Of a DNA stretch of 32,706 nt, positions 2 to 24,407 are shown in pieces. The stretch is from Frankia torreyi (GTDB taxonomy: Bacteria; Actinomycetota; Actinomycetes; Frankiales; Frankiaceae). Location: the NCBI RefSeq assembly GCF_000948395.1, contig NZ_JYFN01000068.1:1-32706 (forward strand). Direction: 5' to 3'. The position numbers and the translations under genes are program-made. Within the stretch, counting starts at the first letter, position 1; each line of letters begins with the position of its first letter. The notes under the pieces are model-generated. The model was not told where the DNA came from. It saw only the letters and a program-made list of their open reading frames with translations, and searched no databases.

Positions 2-4613
<4,612 letters not shown>

Positions 4614-4621
<8 letters not shown>

Positions 4622-7600
4622 CGAAGAGAAGCTCGTTGAATATCTGAAATGGGTGACGGCGGATCTGGCCCGCACCCGTCAGCGTCTTACCGAGGTGGAG
4701 TCCGAACAGCACGAGCCCATCGCGATCGTCGGGATGAGCTGCCGCTTCCCCGGGGACGTGTGGAGTCCGGAGGATCTGTGGGACCTGGTGGCCGGGGGGC
4801 GGGACGCCATCACACCCTTTCCCGCGGACCGCGGCTGGGACGTCGACGCGCTCTACGACCCAGATCCCGACTCGGACGTCGGCGGCACCTCGGTGACCCG
4901 GCACGGCGGATTCCTGCACCACGCCGACGAGTTCGACGCCGGGCTGTTCGGCCTCAGCCCGCGGGAGGCCCTCGCGACCGATCCCCAACAACGCCTTCTG
5001 CTCGAGACCGCCTGGGAGGCGTTCGAACGGGCGGGCATCGACCACACCACGTTGCGGGGCAGCCGGACCGGTGTGTACGCGGGCGTGATGTACGACGACT
5101 ACGCCTCCCGGCTCGGGCGGCCGCCGCGCGAGTACGAGGGATTCATCGGCAACGGCAGCGCCGGCAGCGTCGCCTCGGGTCGCCTCGCGTACACCTTCGG
5201 CCTCGAGGGGCCGGCGATCACCGTGGACACAGCGTGTTCCTCGTCGCTGGTCGCCGTCCATCTCGCCTGCGGCGCGCTGCGCCGAGGAGAGTGCTCCCTC
5301 GCGCTCGCCGGCGGTGTGACGGTGATGGCCACCCCCGGCCTGTTCATCGAGTTCAGCCGTCAGCGCGGCCTGTCGTTCGACGGGCGGTGCCGGTCGTATG
5401 CGGCCTCGGCCAACGGCACCGGGTTCGGAGAGGGGGTCGGCCTGCTGGTGCTGGAGCGGCTGCGCGATGCCCAACGCGCCGGGCATCGCGTGCTGGCGGT
5501 GGTCCGCGGCTCGGCCGTGAACTCCGACGGCGCGAGCAACGGGCTCACCGCGCCGAACGGGCCCGCCCAGCAGCGGGTTATCCGCGACGCCCTGGCCGAC
5601 GCCCGGCTGGAACCCGCCGATGTCGATGTCGTCGAGGGCCACGGCACCGGAACGACTCTGGGTGATCCGATTGAGGCGCAGGCGCTGCTGGACACCTACG
5701 GCCAGCGCGGCACCGGCGAACCGCTCCGGCTGGGCTCGGTCAAGACGAACATCGGCCACACCCAGGCCGCGGCCGGTGTCGCCGGGATCATCAAGATGGT
5801 CATGGCGATGCGGCACCAGACCCTGCCGCGCAGCCTCTACGCGGACGAGCCGACGCCGCATGTGGCCTGGTCCGACGGGGCAGTCGCGCTGCTGACCGAG
5901 AGTCTGGACTGGCCCGCGCCCGCCGGCCGGCCCCGCCGGGCCGCGGTGTCCGCGTTCGGCATCAGCGGAACCAACGCGCACCTCATCCTGGAGGAACCGT
6001 CGCCCGCCGGGCAGCCCACGCCAGACGACGTACCCTCGCCGCGACCGTCCATCGACTCACCCGCCGCGCCGTCGTCCGCTCCCGGCCCGCAGACCGACCG
6101 GACCGTCCAGCCCCGCGTGTTCGCCTTCCCCGTCTCGGGGCACAGCGACGAGGCTCTGCGGGCCCAGGCGGAGCGGCTGCGCGGGTTCGTCGCCGACCAC
6201 CCCGACGTCGCGCTGGCCGACGTCGCGCACGCGTTGACCACGACCCGCCCCCTGCTCGGCCACCGGGCCGCCGTCGTCGCCGGCCGGTCCGACGACCTGA
6301 TGCGAGGCCTCGCGGCACTGGGACACGGCGAGTTCGATCCCAGCGTGGTCGGGCCGACCGCGGCACGCCCCGCGGGACGTACGGCGTTCCTGTTCACCGG
6401 CCAGGGCAGCCAGCGCTCAGGCATGGGCCGCGACCTCCACGCGGAGGATCCGGTCTTCCGTGAGGCGCTGGACACGGTGTGCGCCCAGTTCGACCCCCAC
6501 CTCGACCGGCCGCTGCGGGAGGTGATGTTCGCTCCGGCCGGCCATCCCGACTCGCGGCTGCTCGACGAGACCCGCTACACACAGCTCGCCCTGTTCACGC
6601 TGGAGGTGGCGCTGTATCGGCTGGTGGAGGACCGGGGCCTGCGACCGGACCTGATGATCGGGCATTCGATCGGTGAACTCGCGGCGGTCCACGTCGCCGG
6701 GGTCCTGGGGCTCGAGGATGCCTGCGCGCTCGTCACGGCCCGGGCCCGGTTGATGCAGTCCATGCCGGCCGGCGGCGCGATGATCTCGGTGCAGGCGGCT
6801 GAGGACGAGGTCCTTGAGATGATCGACGGGCGGCAGGAGCTGGTCGGCATCGCCGCGATCAACGGCCCGCGGAACATCGTGATCTCCGGAGACCGGGACA
6901 CCGCCCTGGACGTCATGCGCTCGCTGCGCGGCCGCGGCCACCGGGCGAAGCGGCTGCGGGTGAGCCACGCGTTCCACTCGCCGCACATGAACGGCATGCT
7001 CGACGAGTTCAGTCGGGTGGCGCGGACGCTCACGTTCCATACCCCGCGGATCCCGGTCGTCTCCAGCGTGACGGGCGACCGCGTGACGCTCGACGAGCTG
7101 CGCTCGCCCGGGTACTGGACGCGGCAGGTGCGCCAGGCCGTCCGCTTCGACGACGGCGTGCGCACCCTGCTCGGCCTCGGCGTGGAGGCCTTCGTCGAAC
7201 TCGGGCCGGCAGCCGTGCTCACGGCGCTCGTCCAGGACCGTCTGCAGACCACGGCCGCGCCGGGGGCGCCGGACGCACTGCTCGTTCCCCTGCTGCGCGC
7301 GGACCGGCCCGAGCAGATCTCGATCACCTCCGGCCTCGCGGCGGCCCACCTGCGTGGGCTCGTCCCGGCCGTATCGACGGTGCGCGGCGACGGGCCCCCC
7401 GCCCCGGTCGACCTGCCGACGTACGCGTTCCGGCGGACTCGGTACTGGCTGCACGCGGAGCCGGCCGCGGCGGCCGCGTCGACCTCGCAGGACGCGGAGT
7501 TCTGGGCCGCTGTCGACCGGGGGGACGCGTCGGACCTCGCGGTGACGCTGGGAATCGACACCGAACGGCAGTCCGCCGTCGAGGCGCTGCTGCCGACGCT

Positions 7601-8951
7601 GACGGCGTGGCGCCAGCAGCGGAACTGGCGCTACCGGGTGACCCGGCACTCGCCGCAGGACGGTCTCCGCCTCGTCCGGGCCGGCCGGCCGCGGGCGGGC
7701 AGGCGCTGGGTACCGCGGGGCGCGGTCGTCGTCGCCGGGACGGCCGAGGGACTCGGCGGGGTCGCCCTGCGCTGGCTGGCCCGCCACGGCGCCGACCATC
7801 TCGTGCTGCTGACCCCGGACCCGCACACCTCCGCGGTGCGGGCTCTCGAGGCGGAGCTGGCCCGCCACGAGGTCCCCTTCGCGGCCCTGGACATCAACCT
7901 GGCGGGCGGTGTCGACCTGGCCGGTCGCGACGTGGCCGCGACGGTCCCGCTGTCCGTCGTGGTGTGCGCCGGGGACCTCCCCGACGGCGGCGAGGCGCTG
8001 GCCAGCCTGGCCGCGCTGCCGCGGGATCCGGTGCGCGCCGAGTCCACGGCGGCGCCACTCGGCACCGGGGCGGGCGCGCCGGTCGCCGTGCTCGTCGTCC
8101 TCGCTCCGCTGCCGGCGGAGTTCGCCACCACCGGCAGCCCCGCCACCGCCGAGAGCCCCGCCACCGCCGAGAGCCCCGCCACCGCCGAGAACCCCGCCAC
8201 CGCCGAGAACCCCGCCACCGCCGAGAACCCCGCCACCGCCGAGAACCCCGCCACCGCCGAGAACCCCGCCACCGCCGAGAGCATCGTGTCGGCCCAGGTC
8301 GAGGAGATGGTCGCCCGACGCCGAGCCGACGGCCGGCCCGCGTTGGCCGTGGCCTGGGCCCCGTGGCCGGGACCGGACCTCGATGCGGCGGCGGCTCCCG
8401 GGCTGCGCCCGCTCGCGTCGGACCTGGCGATATCGGTGCTGGAGGAGGCCACCAGCGACCAGGAGCCGGTCCTGGTCGTCGCGGACATCGACTGGGAGCG
8501 GTTTCCCGCCGATCTGTCCGTGCCGTTCTTCGCCGGCGTGCCCGAGGTCGCCCGCCTGCAGGCGGGCGCCGGGAACGCGGCCGCGCCCACGGGGCCACGG
8601 CTGCTCGACCAGCTCGCGGACGCAGACGAAGCCGAGGCCACGGCACTGCTGACAGAGGCCGTACGCGGATGTGTGGGTGGGGTGCTCGGCTATTCCGCGG
8701 ACACCCCGGTCGCCGCCGACACGAGCCTGCTGGATCTCGGCCTCTCCTCGTTCACCGCGCTGGAACTCGGTAACCGACTGCGGGCGGCCACCAGCCTCGA
8801 CGTGCCGGCCAGCGTCATTTTCGACCATCCCACGGCCGAGTCCCTGGCCGGCTATCTGCGGGATCGGCTGGCGACGGCGACGGCGGATCCGTCCGCCGCC
8901 GTCCCACCGGCAGACGCGAACTCCCCAGGGCGGTCAGCGCCCATCCACTAG
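4614..8951 (+). CDS. Type I modular PKS, apparent terminal module: docking-KS-AT-(inactive KR)-ACP
   Basis: 1445 aa. The ATG at 4614 fits because it starts a docking coiled coil ([13 protein letters not shown]...) and overlaps the upstream stop. KS about residues 38-460 has Cys208 (DTACSSS), His343 (EGHGTGT) and His382 (KTNIGH), so it looks active. AT about 590-900 has GHSIGE (Ser685) and HAFH (785-788), the malonyl-CoA signature. The KR-like region (about 960-1290) keeps a decayed nucleotide motif ([11 protein letters not shown], 1038-1048) and an LAVAWAPW end, but the Ser-Tyr-Asn catalytic stretch is missing; an ([12 protein letters not shown])8 repeat at 1175-1222 sits in its place. ACP near 1379 reads LGLSSF, with the modified Ser kept and the usual Asp replaced. 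There is no DH, ER, thioesterase or C-terminal docking domain, so this is probably the last module. Predicted output: an unreduced beta-ketoacyl-ACP needing release by another protein. Confidence 0.95.
8136..8279 (+). repeat. 18-bp minisatellite, 8 copies, inside the degenerate KR
   Basis: Eight near-identical 18-bp units (agccccgccaccgccgag, with agc changing to aac) encode S/N-PATAE. The array keeps the PKS frame. It lies where a KR normally carries its catalytic Ser-Tyr-Asn loop. Near-identity of the units argues for recent expansion. Confidence 0.95.
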
Positions 8952-8982: not shown

Positions 8983-10479
8983 ATGAGTGGCACGGTGGTG
9001 ATAGTCGGCGGTGGGCCGGCTGGCCTGATGCTCGGCTGCGAGCTCCGTCTCGGTGGTATTGAGACGATCATCCTGGAGCAGCGACGTGAGGCACCTGCGG
9101 CCTCTGGCGGAATGGCTGTCCACGGCCAGACCATGAAGGTCCTCAAGGAGCGCGGATTCGCCGAGCGTATCCACGGCGAGGGGATCTTCCCCTGGCCTCG
9201 GACGCCTTTCGCGCTCCTGTGGCTGGACATCAGCTCGGCGAAGCCGGAGGAGCTCACCTACGTCTATCCGCAGTGGCGGCTCGAGCGTCTGCTGGAGTCG
9301 CGGGCGGTCGAGCTGGGCGTCGATCTGCGCCGGGGTCACCGAGTGATCGGAGTCGAACAGGACGCCGCCGGGGTCACCGCCAGGGTGGCGGCCGGCGACG
9401 AGGTCTATCAACTCACCGGTGACTACCTGGTCGGCTGCGACGGTCCCGACAGCGCGGTCCGGAAGGCCGCCGGGATCACGTCTGCGGTGCTCGGGAACAG
9501 CTACTACGGCGTGTGGGGCGACCTGGAGCTGACCCCGGGTACCGACTACCCGTTCGAGTCGGGTGTCTACGACCGGGGCATCTTCGGGGCCATGCCGCTC
9601 GTGACCGGCGGCCTGCGGCTGATGTCCATCGAGTTCGACGAGACCGGCCCGACCGAGGAGCCGGTGACCGAGCAGGAGCTGTTCGAGAGCATGCGCCGGA
9701 TCACCGGTGGCGCCCCGACAACCGGGAAGATCAGTCATCTCGGCCGGTTCGGCGGGCCGGTGAGTATCGCCGACCGCTATCGCGACGGGCGGATCCTGCT
9801 CGCCGGCGACGCCGCCCACTCGTTCTTCATCTCCGGCACCCAGGGGGTCAACACCGGAATACAGGACGTGGTCAACCTGGGCTGGAAACTGGCCGCGACG
9901 CTGCGCGGATGGGCGCCCGCCGATCTGCTCGACACCTACGAACTGGAACGTCATCCGGTGGGCCTGCGGATGTGCCAGCACGCCCAGGCGACCATGGGGC
10001 TGCTCTACCCGTTGGACCGCATCGCCTACCTGCGGGACATCGTCAACGATCTGATCGGCATCGACGGAGTCAGCAAGCACCTGCTCGACATCACCACCGC
10101 GGTGCGGTACCCGTTCGAGGATGCGACCCAGTCCGGCGCCGGGCCGGACCATCCGCTACTGGGCTGGCCCGTACCCGACGCGACGTTGGTGATCGGCGAC
10201 CGGGTCGAGTCCGTGGCGACGACCCTGCACGCCGGGCGCGGGGTGCTGCTCGACCTCTCCGCGGGCGCCGCCGACCTGACAGGGATCGCCGACTGGAGCG
10301 GTCGGGTCGACCTGACGGTGGCCGACCCCATCCCCGACGTCGACGCGGCGACCCTGCTGATCCGCCCGGACGGACACGTCGCCCATGCCGACGCCGACGG
10401 CACGGACGCCAAGGGCCTGCGGGAGGCACTCGCCCGTTGGTTCGGGACGCCCGCGCCGGCAGGAGCGGGCACGCCGTGA
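8983..10479 (+). CDS. FAD-dependent aromatic/polyketide monooxygenase (group A, PHBH-like)
   Basis: 498 aa. The ATG at 8983 follows AAAGGA at 8971-8976 and lies 31 nt after the PKS stop, so it is probably in the same operon. An N-terminal Rossmann motif GGGPAG (residues 10-15), a GCDGPDS motif (151-157) and a GDAAHS motif (275-280) followed by GVNTGIQDV mark a single-component, NAD(P)H- and FAD-dependent hydroxylase. A C-terminal thioredoxin-like tail ends with a DGHVAHAD segment, as in the PgaE/MtmOIV/rifampicin-monooxygenase group. It probably hydroxylates, or by Baeyer-Villiger oxidation inserts oxygen into, the polyketide. It is clearly paralogous to the monooxygenase at 22926-24407. Substrate cannot be read from sequence. 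Confidence 0.93.
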   Translation: MSGTVVIVGGGPAGLMLGCELRLGGIETIILEQRREAPAASGGMAVHGQTMKVLKERGFAERIHGEGIFPWPRTPFALLWLDISSAKPEELTYVYPQWRLERLLESRAVELGVDLRRGHRVIGVEQDAAGVTARVAAGDEVYQLTGDYLVGCDGPDSAVRKAAGITSAVLGNSYYGVWGDLELTPGTDYPFESGVYDRGIFGAMPLVTGGLRLMSIEFDETGPTEEPVTEQELFESMRRITGGAPTTGKISHLGRFGGPVSIADRYRDGRILLAGDAAHSFFISGTQGVNTGIQDVVNLGWKLAATLRGWAPADLLDTYELERHPVGLRMCQHAQATMGLLYPLDRIAYLRDIVNDLIGIDGVSKHLLDITTAVRYPFEDATQSGAGPDHPLLGWPVPDATLVIGDRVESVATTLHAGRGVLLDLSAGAADLTGIADWSGRVDLTVADPIPDVDAATLLIRPDGHVAHADADGTDAKGLREALARWFGTPAPAGAGTP

Positions 10480-10567: not shown

Positions 10568-11599
10568 TCACAGGGCTTCGAACACGTATCCAGCCTGGAT
10601 CCACTTGCTCGACTCCACCGCGATGCCGAGTGCTCGGTCGCCCGGCGCCATCTCGGCGAGGGCCCGCTCGATCTGGAAGAAGGGCAGCGCGTTGCCGGTG
10701 TTTCCGGTCTCGGTCACGCAGGAGACCTCTTCCGCGCTCGGCACCCCCAGCGCTTCGACGATGCGGGGCGTCATCCGGCCGGAGAGCTGCGGCGGCAGCA
10801 GGTAGTCGAGATCGGTCTCTTTCCACCCGAGGTCGTCGAGAAGCATGTGCAGGGTCTCGACCGCCATCGGGGGCACCGATTCCTCGATCATCTTGTAGTT
10901 CTCGCTGGCCGGCGGACGGTCGCTGTCGCGGTCGGCGAGCCCGTACCACTCCAGCGACTGCCCCGGCTCACGGCCGAGCCCCGTGAGCCGGGTGACCACT
11001 CGGCGGATCACGGCCCGTCCATGGTCGGGCGATGTGCCCAGCACGACCGCGCCGGCCGCGTCCCCGAAGAGGATGAGGTTGACCAACTGCGCCGGCGGCA
11101 TGCTTGTGACGTCGAGATCGACGTCGAAGTGCTTCGCCGTCGTGTCGCCGCCCAGGACGAGCGCCGTGCGGTACGCGCCGGTCTGCAGGAAGTGGTGGGC
11201 GACCTCCAGTGCCTGGACGGCCCCGGAGCAGCCGGACTGGAGCTGATAGGTGGGGACGCGGTTGATCCCGATCCGGTCGGCGACGATGTTGACGGTCGCG
11301 GGCATGAGCATGTCCGGGGTCGAGGTACCCATGACGATGAGCTCGATGTCCGCCGGGCTGATGTTCGCCGCGGTGATCGCGTGCCGCGCCGCCGTCGTCG
11401 CGAGGTCGGCCAGCGAACAGTACTGCTCGCCGGTGTCCAGGTCACGGGCCAGATGGCGGGTACGGGTGCCGATGAAGGTGTCGACCCACTGCTCCCACAC
11501 CGAATCCATGCGGAAAAGTCTCGCCAGACGGGCGTTGTCGACCGGGGCGCCCGGAAGAGCGGTTCCCGCAGACATGATCCGGATCTCCGTAGACTCCAT
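10568..11599 (-). CDS. KAS III (FabH)-like ketosynthase/acyltransferase lacking the catalytic His
   Basis: 343 aa from the ATG at 11599. A TTG at 11614 adds five residues and has an AGGG about 8 nt upstream, so it is an alternative. The thiolase fold shows the nucleophile in SGCSG (Cys124) and Asn300 in TGNTGN. The stretch that reads PHQAN in FabH reads PPQLS here (Pro269-Pro270), so the His is replaced by Pro. Known homologues use the Cys-His-Asn triad for decarboxylative condensation; loss of His suggests non-decarboxylative acyl transfer or condensation instead (inference). It lies beside a PKS that lacks a thioesterase and ends in a beta-keto module, so it is a candidate for chain release, or for esterifying or starter-unit duties. 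It is convergent with the PKS operon and so transcribed separately. Confidence 0.9.
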   Translation of the reverse strand: MESTEIRIMSAGTALPGAPVDNARLARLFRMDSVWEQWVDTFIGTRTRHLARDLDTGEQYCSLADLATTAARHAITAANISPADIELIVMGTSTPDMLMPATVNIVADRIGINRVPTYQLQSGCSGAVQALEVAHHFLQTGAYRTALVLGGDTTAKHFDVDLDVTSMPPAQLVNLILFGDAAGAVVLGTSPDHGRAVIRRVVTRLTGLGREPGQSLEWYGLADRDSDRPPASENYKMIEESVPPMAVETLHMLLDDLGWKETDLDYLLPPQLSGRMTPRIVEALGVPSAEEVSCVTETGNTGNALPFFQIERALAEMAPGDRALGIAVESSKWIQAGYVFEAL

Positions 11600-12130: not shown

Positions 12131-12928
12131 TTACAGGCCGACTCGCTGGCGAATGATGGGTGTCCTGATACCACGTATTTCGCACGTTTCGTCCAGAATT
12201 GACTGGCGAATACGCTGGAAGCCGTCGCCAGGTTCCACGGCGAGTTCCCGGGTGATGGTGCTCCAGCCGCGGTCGTAGACGCTCAGAGCCTCCGCTCTGC
12301 GCTCCGATCGGCACAGGGCGATAATCAGGAGTTGATAGAACGACTCGCGGAGGGGATACTCGGCTATGAGCGAGTAGAGCTGGCTGAGGCTTTCGTGGTG
12401 TCGCTGTAGTCCAAGCTTCGCCTCGATCAGCGTCTCCAGGCACACCAGTCGGGATTCCTCGAGCCAGGTGATATGATCATTGATGATAAAGCCGCCCTGA
12501 AGCCCACCGAGCGCGGAGCTGCGCCACCGACTCAAGGCCGATTCGCATTCCGTGACGGCCTGGGCGTAGTTGTCGAGATGAAGATGCTGGCATCCTCTGC
12601 TCAGCTCCTTCTGGAAGAGGTGCAGGTCGAGTGTGTCGGTGCCCAGCTGCAACATGTACCCTGGGGATCGAGTGACCACCGGGCTGCTCGACTCGCCGGA
12701 GACGCACAGGAACTTCCGTACCTGGGAGACGTAGACGTACAGGGCGGCCGCGGCACACCGGGGCGGACGCCCGTTCCAGAGTTCGGCGACCAGCTGATCG
12801 GCGGGGACCACCTGGCCGGCGCGGATCAGTAGTGTCGCGAGCAGGATTTTGACCTTGGGTACGCTCAGGGAGTGGTCACCGGACTCGGTGACCACTCGTA
12901 GTTCTCCCAACATCTCGTAGCGCCTCAC
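12131..12928 (-). CDS. SARP-family pathway activator (AfsR/DnrI-like, small form)
   Basis: 265 aa from the GTG at 12928. That start is chosen because AGGGAGG lies 5 nt before it and the protein then begins VRRYEMLGELRV, matching other SARPs; upstream in-frame codons do not look coding. Residues about 1-95 form the OmpR-type winged helix (VPKVKILLATLLIRAGQVV...ELWNGRPP...YVSQVRKFL). Residues 100-255 form the bacterial transcriptional activation domain (TPR-like, ending ELAVEPGDGFQRIRQSIL). It lacks the NB-ARC/TPR extension of AfsR. SARPs activate antibiotic clusters by binding direct repeats near -35 elements, so it probably switches on this cluster. Its GC content is lower than that of the PKS genes. 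Confidence 0.93.
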   Translation of the reverse strand: MRRYEMLGELRVVTESGDHSLSVPKVKILLATLLIRAGQVVPADQLVAELWNGRPPRCAAAALYVYVSQVRKFLCVSGESSSPVVTRSPGYMLQLGTDTLDLHLFQKELSRGCQHLHLDNYAQAVTECESALSRWRSSALGGLQGGFIINDHITWLEESRLVCLETLIEAKLGLQRHHESLSQLYSLIAEYPLRESFYQLLIIALCRSERRAEALSVYDRGWSTITRELAVEPGDGFQRIRQSILDETCEIRGIRTPIIRQRVGL

Positions 12929-13307
12929 GACGACCTCCCTTCTGTCTGGGTGCACGCGGGTGAGGATGCGCGTCCGGAACTCGTCAACCGGCTGGTTCGG
13001 GTCCTTCTCCACCCGGAGATTCTCCAGCTCCCGGCCCGGCACGCTGATCGCTGGCCGGCCCTTCGGTCCTGGCGGCCTGGCCGGCGCCTCACGCTAATCC
13101 GTGTGCGTGCCCACAGCTTGTCATCGGGCGAGAACGTGCTTCTCTCGCCACCCGCAAGGATCGTAAGACGACTGGAGATGCCCGCCTTACCTCATGCTGG
13201 CAGGAAGAGACCTGACCTGGCCCGGCACCTGAGGTGGGGGTGGGCCGGACCGCAAAGTGCCACGCCATCAGTATAGATGACGTGGCGGCCCTCAGCGACG
13301 TTATGTT

Positions 13308-13782: not shown

Positions 13783-15300
13783 CTATCCCGCCGCGGTGGA
13801 GTCCGCCGGGGTCTCGACGGGATACTTGGCGGGGACGGCCTCCTGCGATGCTGTCGCCCGCGTCCGCAGCGCGATGATCGCCACGAGGAGAGCTGCCCCC
13901 ACGAACACCAGCGACGCTGTGAACGCGCCGCTCATTCCTTCGAACAGCGAGTAGCGACCTACGTCGCCGGGGGCGAGGTCGGTGGGCAGATGTTCCTGGG
14001 CATGCCGGCTCGAGGACGCGAAGACGGTGACCAGGGTGCTGACCCCGAGGGAGAAGCCCACCCACTGCATCGCTTCGAGAAGGCTGGAACCCGCGCCGGA
14101 CTCCTCCGGCCGAAGGTTGGACAGGGTCACCGAACTCAGCGCGGTGAAGGCGAGTCCTGAGCCGGCACCGAACAGCAGTGTGGGACCGAGTACACCGTTG
14201 AGGTAGCTTGTGGAGAGATCGACACGGGAAAGCCAGACCATGCCGCAGAAGACCATGGCCGCGCCCACGACGACGAACACGCGAGTGCCGACCCGTTCGA
14301 GGAACTGGGCGGCGATGGTGCCACCCGTCATGATGGCGAACGCCATGGGAAGAAAGGCGAATCCGGCGCGCAGCGGCCCGAAGTCGAGGCCGTTCTGCAG
14401 AAGCTGGGTCACGAAGAAGTTCATGCCGGCCATGGTGGCGGTGAGGGCGAGCAGGTCGAAGTACCCGGCTCCCCGGCTGCGGTTCTTGAAGATTCCCAAG
14501 GGGACGATCGGCTGGTCGGCCCGTGCTTCGACCACGATGAAACCGGCCAGCAGGATGACTGCCAGGGCCAGGGTGCCCTCGGTGACCCAGTTGCTCCACC
14601 CGTCCGAGGCCGCGTGGAGCAGGCCGTAGACGAGTGACGTCATCGCCGCGACCGACAGGAACGCGCCGGGGAGGTCGAAACGCCCCGGATGGCGTTCCGC
14701 CTCGTTGATGAACAGGGGCACCAGGAGGAGGACCGCGACCGAGATCGGGACGTTGATGAACATCACCCAACGCCAGGAGGCCCACTCGGTGAGCATGCCG
14801 CCGAGAATCAGCCCCAGGGCGAGGCTGGCCGCGTATGCCCCTGACACTGCGCCGAAGGCCCGGTTGCGGGTGGGTCCTTCCTCGAAGTTCGACGTGATCA
14901 GCGCGAGGGCGTTGGGCGCCGCGAACGCCGAGGCCGCTCCCTGGGCCGCTCGGGCGGCCAGCAGCCAGCCCGAGGACGGCGCGAGGCCGCCGAGCAGGGA
15001 AGCCACGCCGAAGATTCCGAGCGCGGCCATGAAGACCCGCCGCCGACCGAGGATGTCGCCGGCGCGGCCACCGAGCAGCAGCAGGCCGCCGAAGGCGATG
15101 GTGTAGGCACTGCTGACCCAGGCCAGGCTGGACGAGGAGAAATGCAGCGCCGAGCGGATGTGCGGCAGGGCGATGTTCACGACGGTGGCGTCCAGGCCGA
15201 CGATGAACTGGCAGCACACGATGATCATCAGAGTGATCGTGGGATGGCCTGGTCTCCGGGCCCGGGGTGGACTCGACAGTACTGTTGATCCACTGGACAT
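13783..15300 (-). CDS. MFS drug:H+ antiporter, DHA2 (14-TM, EmrB/QacA type)
   Basis: 505 aa. The ATG at 15300 has GGAGAG just upstream. The protein has about 14 hydrophobic segments. It shows the DHA2 motif C region (GLDATVVNIALPHIR in TM1), the loop-2 motif A (GGRAGDILGRRR) and WRWVMFINVP after TM5. It probably exports the cluster's product or a related toxic compound from the cytoplasm using the proton gradient. It is divergent from the TetR gene 123 bp away, the usual arrangement for repressor-controlled exporters, so the shared promoter region is probably repressed until ligand accumulates. The C-terminal tail is short and polar. Confidence 0.94.
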   Translation of the reverse strand: MSSGSTVLSSPPRARRPGHPTITLMIIVCCQFIVGLDATVVNIALPHIRSALHFSSSSLAWVSSAYTIAFGGLLLLGGRAGDILGRRRVFMAALGIFGVASLLGGLAPSSGWLLAARAAQGAASAFAAPNALALITSNFEEGPTRNRAFGAVSGAYAASLALGLILGGMLTEWASWRWVMFINVPISVAVLLLVPLFINEAERHPGRFDLPGAFLSVAAMTSLVYGLLHAASDGWSNWVTEGTLALAVILLAGFIVVEARADQPIVPLGIFKNRSRGAGYFDLLALTATMAGMNFFVTQLLQNGLDFGPLRAGFAFLPMAFAIMTGGTIAAQFLERVGTRVFVVVGAAMVFCGMVWLSRVDLSTSYLNGVLGPTLLFGAGSGLAFTALSSVTLSNLRPEESGAGSSLLEAMQWVGFSLGVSTLVTVFASSSRHAQEHLPTDLAPGDVGRYSLFEGMSGAFTASLVFVGAALLVAIIALRTRATASQEAVPAKYPVETPADSTAAG

Positions 15301-16266: not shown

Positions 16267-17331
16267 TCAGGCGGTCTCCGCGGCCTGGGCGACGACGGCC
16301 GGCTCCCGCGACGCGGAGCCAAGCAGCTCGGCGAACAGTTCGTACGAGCGCACCCGTTCGGCGGGGTCCTGGATCATCGTGTGCAGCATCAGCTCGTCCA
16401 GCCCAGTGGCATCGACCAGTGCCTCGAGCTGCTGCTTGAGCTGCTCGGGGCTGCCGATGAGCTGCGGCCCGAGGACCTGCTGCATCATCGTGGCCTCGTC
16501 GGATGACACCGGTACCTGGATCTCGGCCGCCATGGCCGCGCTGGGGAAGGGCCGGTTGATCCCGCGCAGGCTCAGCGCGAAGGCCACCCCCAGCGGTCCC
16601 GCGAGGAACTCCGCGTGCTCCTGGGTGTCGGCCGCGATGCCGACGGCGGCGACCACCGCGTACGGCTGTGCGAACTGGGCCGACGGGCGGAAGCTGCGCC
16701 GGTAGATGTCCAGCGAGGCCACGGTCGCTGACGGGTTGAAATGATGGGCGAAGGCGTATCCCGCGCCGAGCCGACCCGCCAGCTGAGCGCTCTCCCCGCT
16801 GGAACCGAGCACCCACACAGGTACCTCGTTCTCATCGGCGGGCAGGGCCTGGATCCCCCCGTGGCCGCTGCCGGCCTGGGCCAGACCGAAGTAGTCGAGC
16901 AGTTCCTGGAGGTGGGCGGGGAACTCCGCGGCGGCGTTCGGGCCGGTCGCGCGGCGCAGAGCGCGGGCGGTGGCCGGATCGGTGCCGGGAGCCCGACCGA
17001 TACCGAGATCGATGCGGCCGGGGTAAAGCGCCTCCAGGGTGCCGAACTGCTCGGCGACCACCAGCGGCGGGTGGTTGGGGAGCATGACCCCGCCGGAGCC
17101 GATCCGGAGTCGGCTGGTCCGTCCCGCCAGATGGCCGATCAGGATCGCGGGCGCGGTGGCGGCGACGCCCGGCTGATTGTGATGCTCCGCCACCCAGTAG
17201 CGGCGGTATCCGAGTCGCTCCACCGCGACGGCCAGATCCAGGGCACCACGAACCGATTCGGTCGCGGACGAGCCGTGCCATACAGGGACCGTGTCGAGTA
17301 CGGACAGGGGTATTCCCTGGAAATTGCTCAT
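16267..17331 (-). CDS. Luciferase-like (LLM) flavin-dependent monooxygenase
   Basis: 354 aa. The ATG at 17331 has GGAGAA 7 nt upstream. The sequence starts [11 protein letters not shown] and contains [48 protein letters not shown] and [27 protein letters not shown], the pattern of the MsnO8-type LLM group, a TIM-barrel enzyme using FMNH2 from a separate reductase. It may tailor the polyketide or oxidise a compound imported by the divergent ABC transporter; the sequence does not decide. The conserved family motifs look intact. It is not the longer SsuD alkanesulfonate monooxygenase. There is no flavin reductase in the window. Confidence 0.9.
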
Positions 17332-22925: not shown

Positions 22926-24407
22926 TCAGGAAATAGTTGCGGGAACACCGAACCAGGCCGCGAGGGCCTGTCGGAGGCTCTCGGGATCACCGGTCGGATC
23001 GGCATGGACTACGTATCCGTCCGGGCGTACCAGCAGCACCGCGGCCGCTACACCCGCGGGTCGCGGCATGATCGTGGGATCAACCCGGCCCTCCCAGTCG
23101 GCCGCGGTCGCCTTCGGCGACTCCTCTTCCTCCCAGCTGAGCAGGAGACCACGGCCCTCGAACAGCGGCGAGACACCCCCGTTCGCCGCCGTGGCGCTTG
23201 CCACCACGTCGTCGGGAACAGTCCTGCCCAACAGAGAGGACTCCCCGGGATCGGTACCGAAGACCGTAACGTCATAACGGATTCCGACGCCGGTCACCAT
23301 GTCGGTGAGATACCGGTTGACGGCCTCGAGACGCACCAGCTCGCCGAGCAGGCCCCGCAGCGGCTCCAGTCGGTCGAGCGGGTGCAGCAGGGCATCTTGG
23401 GCCCGGGTGTTCCAGCAGACCCGAGCACCCACTGGGCGACGCTCCGCCTCGTAGGTGTCCAGCAGCCCGGGCGTCGCCCATCCGTTCACCTGGGCGGCGA
23501 GCTTCCAGCCGAGGTTGAGTGCGTCCTGAATCCCGGTGTTGAGACCCTGCCCACTGACCGGAAAATGGATATGACAGGAGTCGCCGGCCAGCAGGACTCG
23601 GCCCTCACGATAGCTGTCGGCCAGGCGGGTGGCATTACCGAAGCGAGACAGCCACCGTATCTCTCCCGTGTTCAGGATCCCGAGCTCCGAACCGGAGACC
23701 CGTTTGAACTTCTCCTGGAACTCCTGCACGGTCGGTTCCACGCCGTCGCGGCTGCCCTCGACGCCCAGCTCCAGGGCGGTCACCCGATAGAGCTCCGGGC
23801 CCAGCGGGACCACGGCGAACATGCCGTTCTGGTTCAGCGTAGGGCTGACGAATCCCTGCTTGTCGGCAGTGATCACGTCCGCGGTGAGGCCGTTCGCCGT
23901 CGACGACGTCCCCGGAAACCCGATACCGGCAAGTTTCCGGACCGTGCTGCCGCCGCCGTCGCAGCCCACCACGTAGTCCGCCCGGAGCTGGTAGACGGTG
24001 CCGTCCTCCTGCTCGACGGTGACGTCGACGCCGTCCTGGTCCTGCCGAAGCCCGACCACCGTCTGACCCCGACGGATGTCCGCACCGAGCGAGGCGGCAC
24101 GTTCCTCGAGCCTGCGCTCGATGTCACGCTGCGGGACCAGCAGGGGCAGAAGTGACGGGTCGATGTAGTCCTGGATCTCGATGAGACCGAAGTTGTAGGA
24201 CGGCACCGGTGGGTAGCCCTCGAACCAGTGCAGCCCGCGCTGCTCGAAGACCTGAGCGGACCGGGCATGCAACGTCAGCGAGCGTGAGTACCCGGACGGC
24301 TCGGCAAAACGCTCCAGAAGAATAGTGGGCACCTTGTGCAGCCTGAGTTCACTGGCAAGCATGAAACCAGTAGGCCCGCCACCGACAACGACTACGTTCC
24401 CGCTCAA
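22926..24407 (-). CDS. FAD-dependent aromatic/polyketide monooxygenase (second)
   Basis: 493 aa. The TTG at 24407 is supported by AGAGG 5 nt upstream and by the start MSGNVVVVGGGPTGFML, which parallels the first monooxygenase. GGGPTG binds the FAD ADP moiety, GCDGGGSTVRK is the DG motif, and GDSCHIHFPVSGQGLNTGIQDALNLGWKLAA is the GD motif region, all intact. The C-terminal thioredoxin-like domain ends with a DGYVVHAD segment. Same family as the 8983-10479 product. It probably adds a second oxygen to the polyketide. It lies 132 bp below the P450 gene and 127 bp above the SARP gene, all on one strand, so the three may form one transcription unit. Confidence 0.93.
   Translation of the reverse strand: MSGNVVVVGGGPTGFMLASELRLHKVPTILLERFAEPSGYSRSLTLHARSAQVFEQRGLHWFEGYPPVPSYNFGLIEIQDYIDPSLLPLLVPQRDIERRLEERAASLGADIRRGQTVVGLRQDQDGVDVTVEQEDGTVYQLRADYVVGCDGGGSTVRKLAGIGFPGTSSTANGLTADVITADKQGFVSPTLNQNGMFAVVPLGPELYRVTALELGVEGSRDGVEPTVQEFQEKFKRVSGSELGILNTGEIRWLSRFGNATRLADSYREGRVLLAGDSCHIHFPVSGQGLNTGIQDALNLGWKLAAQVNGWATPGLLDTYEAERRPVGARVCWNTRAQDALLHPLDRLEPLRGLLGELVRLEAVNRYLTDMVTGVGIRYDVTVFGTDPGESSLLGRTVPDDVVASATAANGGVSPLFEGRGLLLSWEEEESPKATAADWEGRVDPTIMPRPAGVAAAVLLVRPDGYVVHADPTGDPESLRQALAAWFGVPATIS

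Follow-up and report, generated by a model that had tools for sequence, protein, structure and literature searches.

A KAS III-like protein with proline at the catalytic histidine position as the putative chain-releasing tetronate synthase of a split Frankia polyketide cluster

The window analyzed here, a stretch of 32,706 nucleotides from Frankia torreyi, comprises contig C118 minus 229 bases. Two PKS genes, the first of them cut by the contig end, and a gene for an FAD-dependent oxidoreductase face a convergent gene for a KAS III-like protein, with regulator and exporter genes beyond it (Table 1). Further along, between positions 16267 and 20564, a luciferase-like monooxygenase adjoins an apparent ABC import system, read by eye as permease, ATPase, and substrate-binding protein. 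This segment could represent abyE-like tailoring or a separate uptake locus, and the two possible readings leave the boundary of the cluster unsure. A second FAD monooxygenase is encoded at 22926-24407; among solved structures, it is closest to rifampin monooxygenase and aromatic polyketide hydroxylases. A search for a spirotetronate cyclase-like AOC barrel (PF18678) returned zero matches, with the control also unmatched.

Table 1. Features of the KAS III locus, in window coordinates
Feature	Coordinates	Strand	Remarks
PKS protein truncated at the 5' side by the contig boundary: (KS C-term)-AT(methylmalonyl-type YASH)-DH-KR-ACP, then a C-terminal docking region	2..4621	+	
Terminal PKS module: docking-KS-AT(malonyl-type HAFH)-degenerate KR-ACP, without thioesterase	4614..8951	+	
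Degenerate KR region, catalytic Ser/Tyr absent	7713..8372	+	beta-keto product predicted
FAD-dependent oxidoreductase (FAD_binding_3 + Rng_hyd_C)	8983..10479	+	nearest solved relative ChlE3 of chlorothricin
KAS III-like (FabH-like) putative tetronate synthase, AbyA1/RkD type	10568..11599	-	343 aa, open frame unbroken
E329-S-S-K-W333 motif, where FabH has a glycine-rich loop	10601..10615	-	alignment, 36 sequences
Asn300 codon, equivalent of the FabH catalytic Asn	10700..10702	-	alignment
Pro270 codon, position of the FabH catalytic His (PPQLSG)	10790..10792	-	(P/T)PQ in 36/36 clade members
Cys124 codon, nucleophile position (QSGCSGA)	11228..11230	-	Cys in 36/36 clade members and 27/27 other KAS III
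SARP-type (BTAD) regulator	12131..13042	-	probably of the tetronate cluster
MFS exporter	13783..15300	-	probably of the tetronate cluster

Orthologues of the FAD-dependent oxidoreductase occur near the KAS III gene in Frankia sp. AiPa1 and in a second related genome (G199). Its kinship to ChlE3 raises the question of a decalin-forming Diels-Alderase. Five residues are reported as universal in ChlE3-type decalin cyclases, His97 and Pro287 among them (PMC13273814); these two are replaced here by Gln and Ile, respectively, and such a role is therefore unlikely. The protein is probably an oxygenase or a divergent cyclase.

The KAS III-like protein matches the Pfam families ACP_syn_III (2.5e-15) and ACP_syn_III_C (5.8e-8), both over the cut-off, and NCBIfam models place it in KAS III, far under the FabH cut-offs. 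It shares with FabH the fold family and the positions of Cys and Asn: the translation reads YQLQSGCSGAV around Cys124 and ETGNTGNALP around Asn300 and Asn303, and in an alignment with 27 other KAS III sequences, Asn300 falls on the Asn of GNTSAAS. In contrast, PHQAN of FabH has become PPQLS, and ESSKW stands where FabH, close to its C-terminus, has a glycine-rich loop. Residues Pro269-Pro270-Gln271 lie within DYLLPPQLSGRM, with Pro270 in the His column, and the Cys-His-Asn triad of priming FabH is thus absent. An earlier note on this DNA had read PPQLS at the catalytic His site beside a retained Cys124 and Asn300; translation and alignment confirm both the reading and its coordinates. The closest solved structure is PDB 5by7, named '3-oxoacyl-ACP synthase III' (E 1e-125 over 338 residues), which also carries PPQLSG and ESSKW; no paper naming 5BY7 was found in the literature searched. 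CorB (E 1.8e-8) and CerJ (E 1.1e-5) are weak matches in the structure database. Predicted structures of the protein were of low quality, with a mean pLDDT of 37.5 from a single sequence and 41.6 from two sequences.

Is the missing His an accident of one protein? A similarity search with the window protein, covering 394 genomes of the same class as well as plasmids and one genome contig, gave a clade set of 36 sequences (the window protein and 35 homologs), which was set against 27 ordinary KAS III from related genomes. The His column reads (P/T)PQ in all 36, whereas His is kept in 26 of the 27 other KAS III. Pro270 itself is invariant across the clade, which establishes that PPQ in place of His is real and not a chance event. 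An ESSKW-type motif likewise replaces the glycine-rich loop throughout, with E329, S331, K332, and W333 invariant and position 330 occupied by Ser in 34 sequences and Ala in 2. The alignment was also read for a substitute His, and no invariant His exists among the clade sequences; the best candidate, His49, is Tyr in 7 of 35. In the tree, the His-less sequences, including PDB 5by7, form a single group (SH-aLRT 99). Given one very long branch among the FabH-like rows and a group picked by similarity to the window protein, the tree shows one clade but gives no date for the His loss. A scan of viral contigs yielded no further clade members and no FabH. Judged by these alignments, loss of the His is the rule of the tetronate-type clade and not an oddity of one protein, where the His position was read in the 36 sequences and 5by7, and the likeness to RkD, AbyA1, ChlM, and Tmn15 was taken from their published descriptions. 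We found no discussion of an absent His in tetronate KAS III in the literature searched, which excluded subscription papers.

The adjoining PKS genes indicate what kind of chain the KAS III-like protein would receive. In the terminal module, the Pfam match to KR spans only about 60 of 180 positions, and a hexapeptide repeat, ATAE(N/S)P (8136-8282), occupies the segment of the catalytic Ser and Tyr. The orthologous module of AiPa1 also has no KR Ser/Tyr motif. With a dead terminal KR, the chain should therefore leave as a beta-keto thioester. A profile search of the whole genome gave no PF00975 thioesterase match on the window contig or on contig C119, described below. The earlier note's description of a PKS ending in an unreduced beta-keto module without a thioesterase is upheld, and the dedicated thioesterase that it named as evidence to the contrary is found on neither contig.

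Partner genes for a tetronate pathway are encoded on C119 of the same genome. An FkbH homolog (NCBIfam TIGR01686, 300 bits versus a cut-off of 147) is followed on one strand by a discrete ACP, an Agg4-like E2 of the 2-oxoacid-dehydrogenase type (DHRVIDG motif), and an Agg5-like alpha/beta hydrolase. The hydrolase gene is followed by a PKS that combines a KSQ loading module with two DH-KR modules. At the contig end, another PKS protein begins, its KS broken off just past the active-site Cys. The window starts within the C-terminal part of a KS, and the gap between the two KS fragments amounts to about 236 residues, a natural place for an assembly break since the KS region is repeated in every module. 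C119 (reversed) followed by C118 very probably constitutes one cluster, judging from the gene content and the two KS ends, in which FkbH-ACP-E2-hydrolase and the KAS III gene occupy opposite ends. Near its FkbH end, C119 also encodes a FAAL-type AMP-ligase and a 317-residue protein without a Pfam match (L015:5526-8746).

We infer this join, as the contigs are unjoined in the assembly, which also places FkbH and E2 outside the window itself; more modules could sit in the gap. The join is supported by Frankia sp. AiPa1, where a single 40.9-kb contig carries all these genes, namely FkbH, ACP, E2, hydrolase, the terminal PKS module, the FAD protein, and a KAS III 78% identical to the window protein. 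Both genes that the earlier note suggested looking for, FkbH and a free ACP, are therefore present in the same genome on C119, and again beside the AiPa1 orthologue, but they are not in the window and their linkage to it depends on the inferred join. The AiPa1 orthologous cluster additionally contains an AurF-like N-oxygenase gene (L005:1441-2547).

A similar association is seen across the clade, in which the window protein groups with KAS III proteins sitting in FkbH-ACP-(E2-hydrolase) cassettes. At 22 of 26 homolog loci, a gene for FkbH, an E2-like protein, or a hydrolase lies in the flanking sequence covered (roughly 10 kb and at most 20 kb), and three of the remaining four have FkbH on the same contig, at distances of 13, 22, and 48 kb. 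The annotated gene order in Methylosinus and Pseudalkalibacillus is KAS III, HAD-IIIC (FkbH-type), ACP, E2. In the complete chromosomes of two related genomes, FkbH and KAS III are 37 and 48 kb apart, so a split layout is not unusual in this group. An FkbH neighborhood alone is not diagnostic, however, because the KAS III adjoining FkbH in one small genome, distant and belonging to another class, retains FHQPN.

One locus differs in its partners. On the Streptantibioticus cattleyicolor plasmid pSCAT (NC_016113.1, about 1573900-1578300; L006:19956-24360), a His-less KAS III (PPQLSG) follows a type I PKS with three KS domains, and FkbH is absent within 70 kb. Located 3' of the KAS III gene are a small ACP-like frame and genes for a pyruvate-dehydrogenase-like E1 alpha, E1 beta, and lipoyl E2, with the E1 beta and ACP-like calls read from the translation and not from profile matches. 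With these genes in place of FkbH, donor units may vary within the clade, and the locus possibly uses another ACP-bound unit, for example glycolyl, in a tetronate-type release.

Based on the clade membership, the FkbH, ACP, E2, and hydrolase genes, and a predicted beta-keto chain with no thioesterase to free it, we consider it highly probable that the KAS III-like protein is the tetronate-forming, chain-releasing enzyme of a polyketide-tetronate cluster divided between C119 (reversed) and C118. The earlier note's comparison with the FabH-like enzymes that off-load chains in tetronate pathways is thus strongly supported by the clade, the C119 genes, and the single-contig cluster of AiPa1. Its further idea, that a His-less variant could represent a different release or acyl-transfer chemistry, loses its footing with (P/T)PQ in every clade member and in PDB 5by7.

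Three other explanations merit consideration. A KAS III-like acyltransferase of the CerJ/ChlB3/DpsC type, acylating a carrier protein, sugar, or alcohol and making no tetronate ring, would suit a protein of the KAS III fold family that is encoded in a tailoring region and has CerJ among its weak matches. Enzymes of this type, however, use Cys-His-Asp or Ser-His-His (PMC9573744), whereas the window protein's clade combines the lack of any invariant His with a retained Asn300; the required set of Cys or Ser, His, and Asp or His is not there. The protein is moreover distant from CerJ and lies within a clade accompanying FkbH/Agg4/Agg5-like genes, which makes an acyltransferase role very improbable. 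We regard as just as improbable a different release chemistry, in which the His-less variant would have diverged from the tetronate enzymes. The His is truly absent, and the S. cattleyicolor locus pairs such a KAS III with an ACP-like frame and E1/E2 genes and has no FkbH, but the absence is clade-wide, extending to loci with complete tetronate cassettes, and the same Frankia genome encodes FkbH, ACP, E2, and hydrolase. The least probable alternative is a catalytically dead or regulatory relic: one residue of the Cys-His-Asn set is indeed lost, but Cys124, Asn300, and about 20 other positions are near-invariant over the 36 sequences, Bacillota and Alphaproteobacteria members included, which favors a maintained function, and deletion of abyA1 or abmA1 abolishes the product (PMC3625739, PMC5819245).

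For the tetronate-forming role, we propose the following model, in part by analogy with characterized pathways. In these, FkbH and an ACP give glyceryl-ACP, a FabH-like enzyme forms a C-C and a C-O bond and frees the chain, and an exocyclic methylene arises by acetylation and elimination, both carried out by Agg4/Agg5 homologues (PMC3625739, PMC5819245, PMC7489565, PMC4979870). In Frankia, the terminal PKS module would present a beta-ketoacyl-ACP, while FkbH would load a glyceryl unit onto the discrete ACP. The KAS III-like protein would then form one C-C and one C-O bond between glyceryl-S-ACP and the beta-ketoacyl chain; once both were made, the chain would leave as a 5-hydroxymethyl 3-acyl-tetronate, which the Agg4/Agg5 pair may acetylate and then convert by elimination into a 5-methylidene tetronate. 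From the predicted modules (KSQ-malonyl load; methylmalonyl-DH-KR; malonyl-DH-KR; methylmalonyl-DH-KR; malonyl with dead KR), the chain would start from acetate, continue with methylmalonate, malonate, and methylmalonate, each dehydrated, and end on an unreduced malonate. Provided that the C119-C118 gap conceals no further module, the predicted product is a 5-methylidene tetronate bearing a 2,6-dimethylocta-2,4,6-trienoyl chain.

How could such an enzyme dispense with its His? In canonical KAS III, His and Asn serve the decarboxylative condensation with malonyl-ACP (PMC5724707). In tetronate formation, the nucleophile would be the beta-ketothioester carbon, which is already acidic; decarboxylation would be superfluous, and the His therefore dispensable. 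Cys124 may serve as the acyl carrier, with Asn300 left to stabilize the enolate. The invariant ESSKW, which in the alignment stands in for the glycine loop, may perhaps contribute to an oxyanion site or to glyceryl binding.

Most likely, the window protein is an ordinary further member of the known tetronate-synthase family, and how that family works without the His is the real question. We see even chances that tetronate synthases represent a separate mechanistic class of KAS III, defined by clade-wide loss of the His, conversion of the glycine-rich loop into ESSKW, and a His-free, non-decarboxylative condensation of hydroxyacyl-ACP with beta-ketoacyl-ACP, in which the hydroxyacyl donor may be exchangeable. 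An apparent oddity thereby becomes a family rule, that of a tetronate-type clade without the KAS III catalytic His, and a putative product class, 3-acyl tetronate, is now assigned to an uncharacterized actinobacterial cluster. Which of the C-C and C-O bonds tetronate KAS III enzymes form first has been described as unclear (PMC4979870), and for this question, the analysis offers a useful set of concrete residues: C124, P270, N300, E329, and K332.

Stand-alone KAS III proteins that release carrier-bound beta-ketoacyl chains with ring formation, as proposed here, are also known from myxopyronin and corallopyronin biosynthesis (MxnB and CorB; PMC5724707). MxnB keeps the Cys-His-Asn triad (PMC5724707), whereas the alignment shows the window protein to lack the His and hence the triad of these alpha-pyrone synthases; MxnB is only 22% identical to RkD (PMC5724707). 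The closest parallels are found among the tetronate systems. At 343 residues, the protein compares with AbyA1 (341) and AbmA1 (343) (PMC3625739, PMC5819245), and a Frankia protein was reported as the best match of AbyA1, with 68% identity (PMC3625739). AbyA1-type genes are needed for abyssomicin-type tetronates (PMC3625739, PMC5819245). AbyA1/AbmA1 (abyssomicin), ChlM (chlorothricin), RkD (RK-682), and Mad16 (tetromadurin) have FkbH, ACP, E2, and hydrolase partners, as found here in the same genome, and the tetromadurin PKS resembles that of the Frankia cluster in its KSQ loading, absent thioesterase, and dead terminal KR (PMC7489565). Unlike in these systems, the Frankia KAS III gene is convergent to the PKS genes, 3' of which it lies, and is outside any A1-A5 operon, and the predicted product is likely a short triene in place of a macrocyclic spirotetronate.
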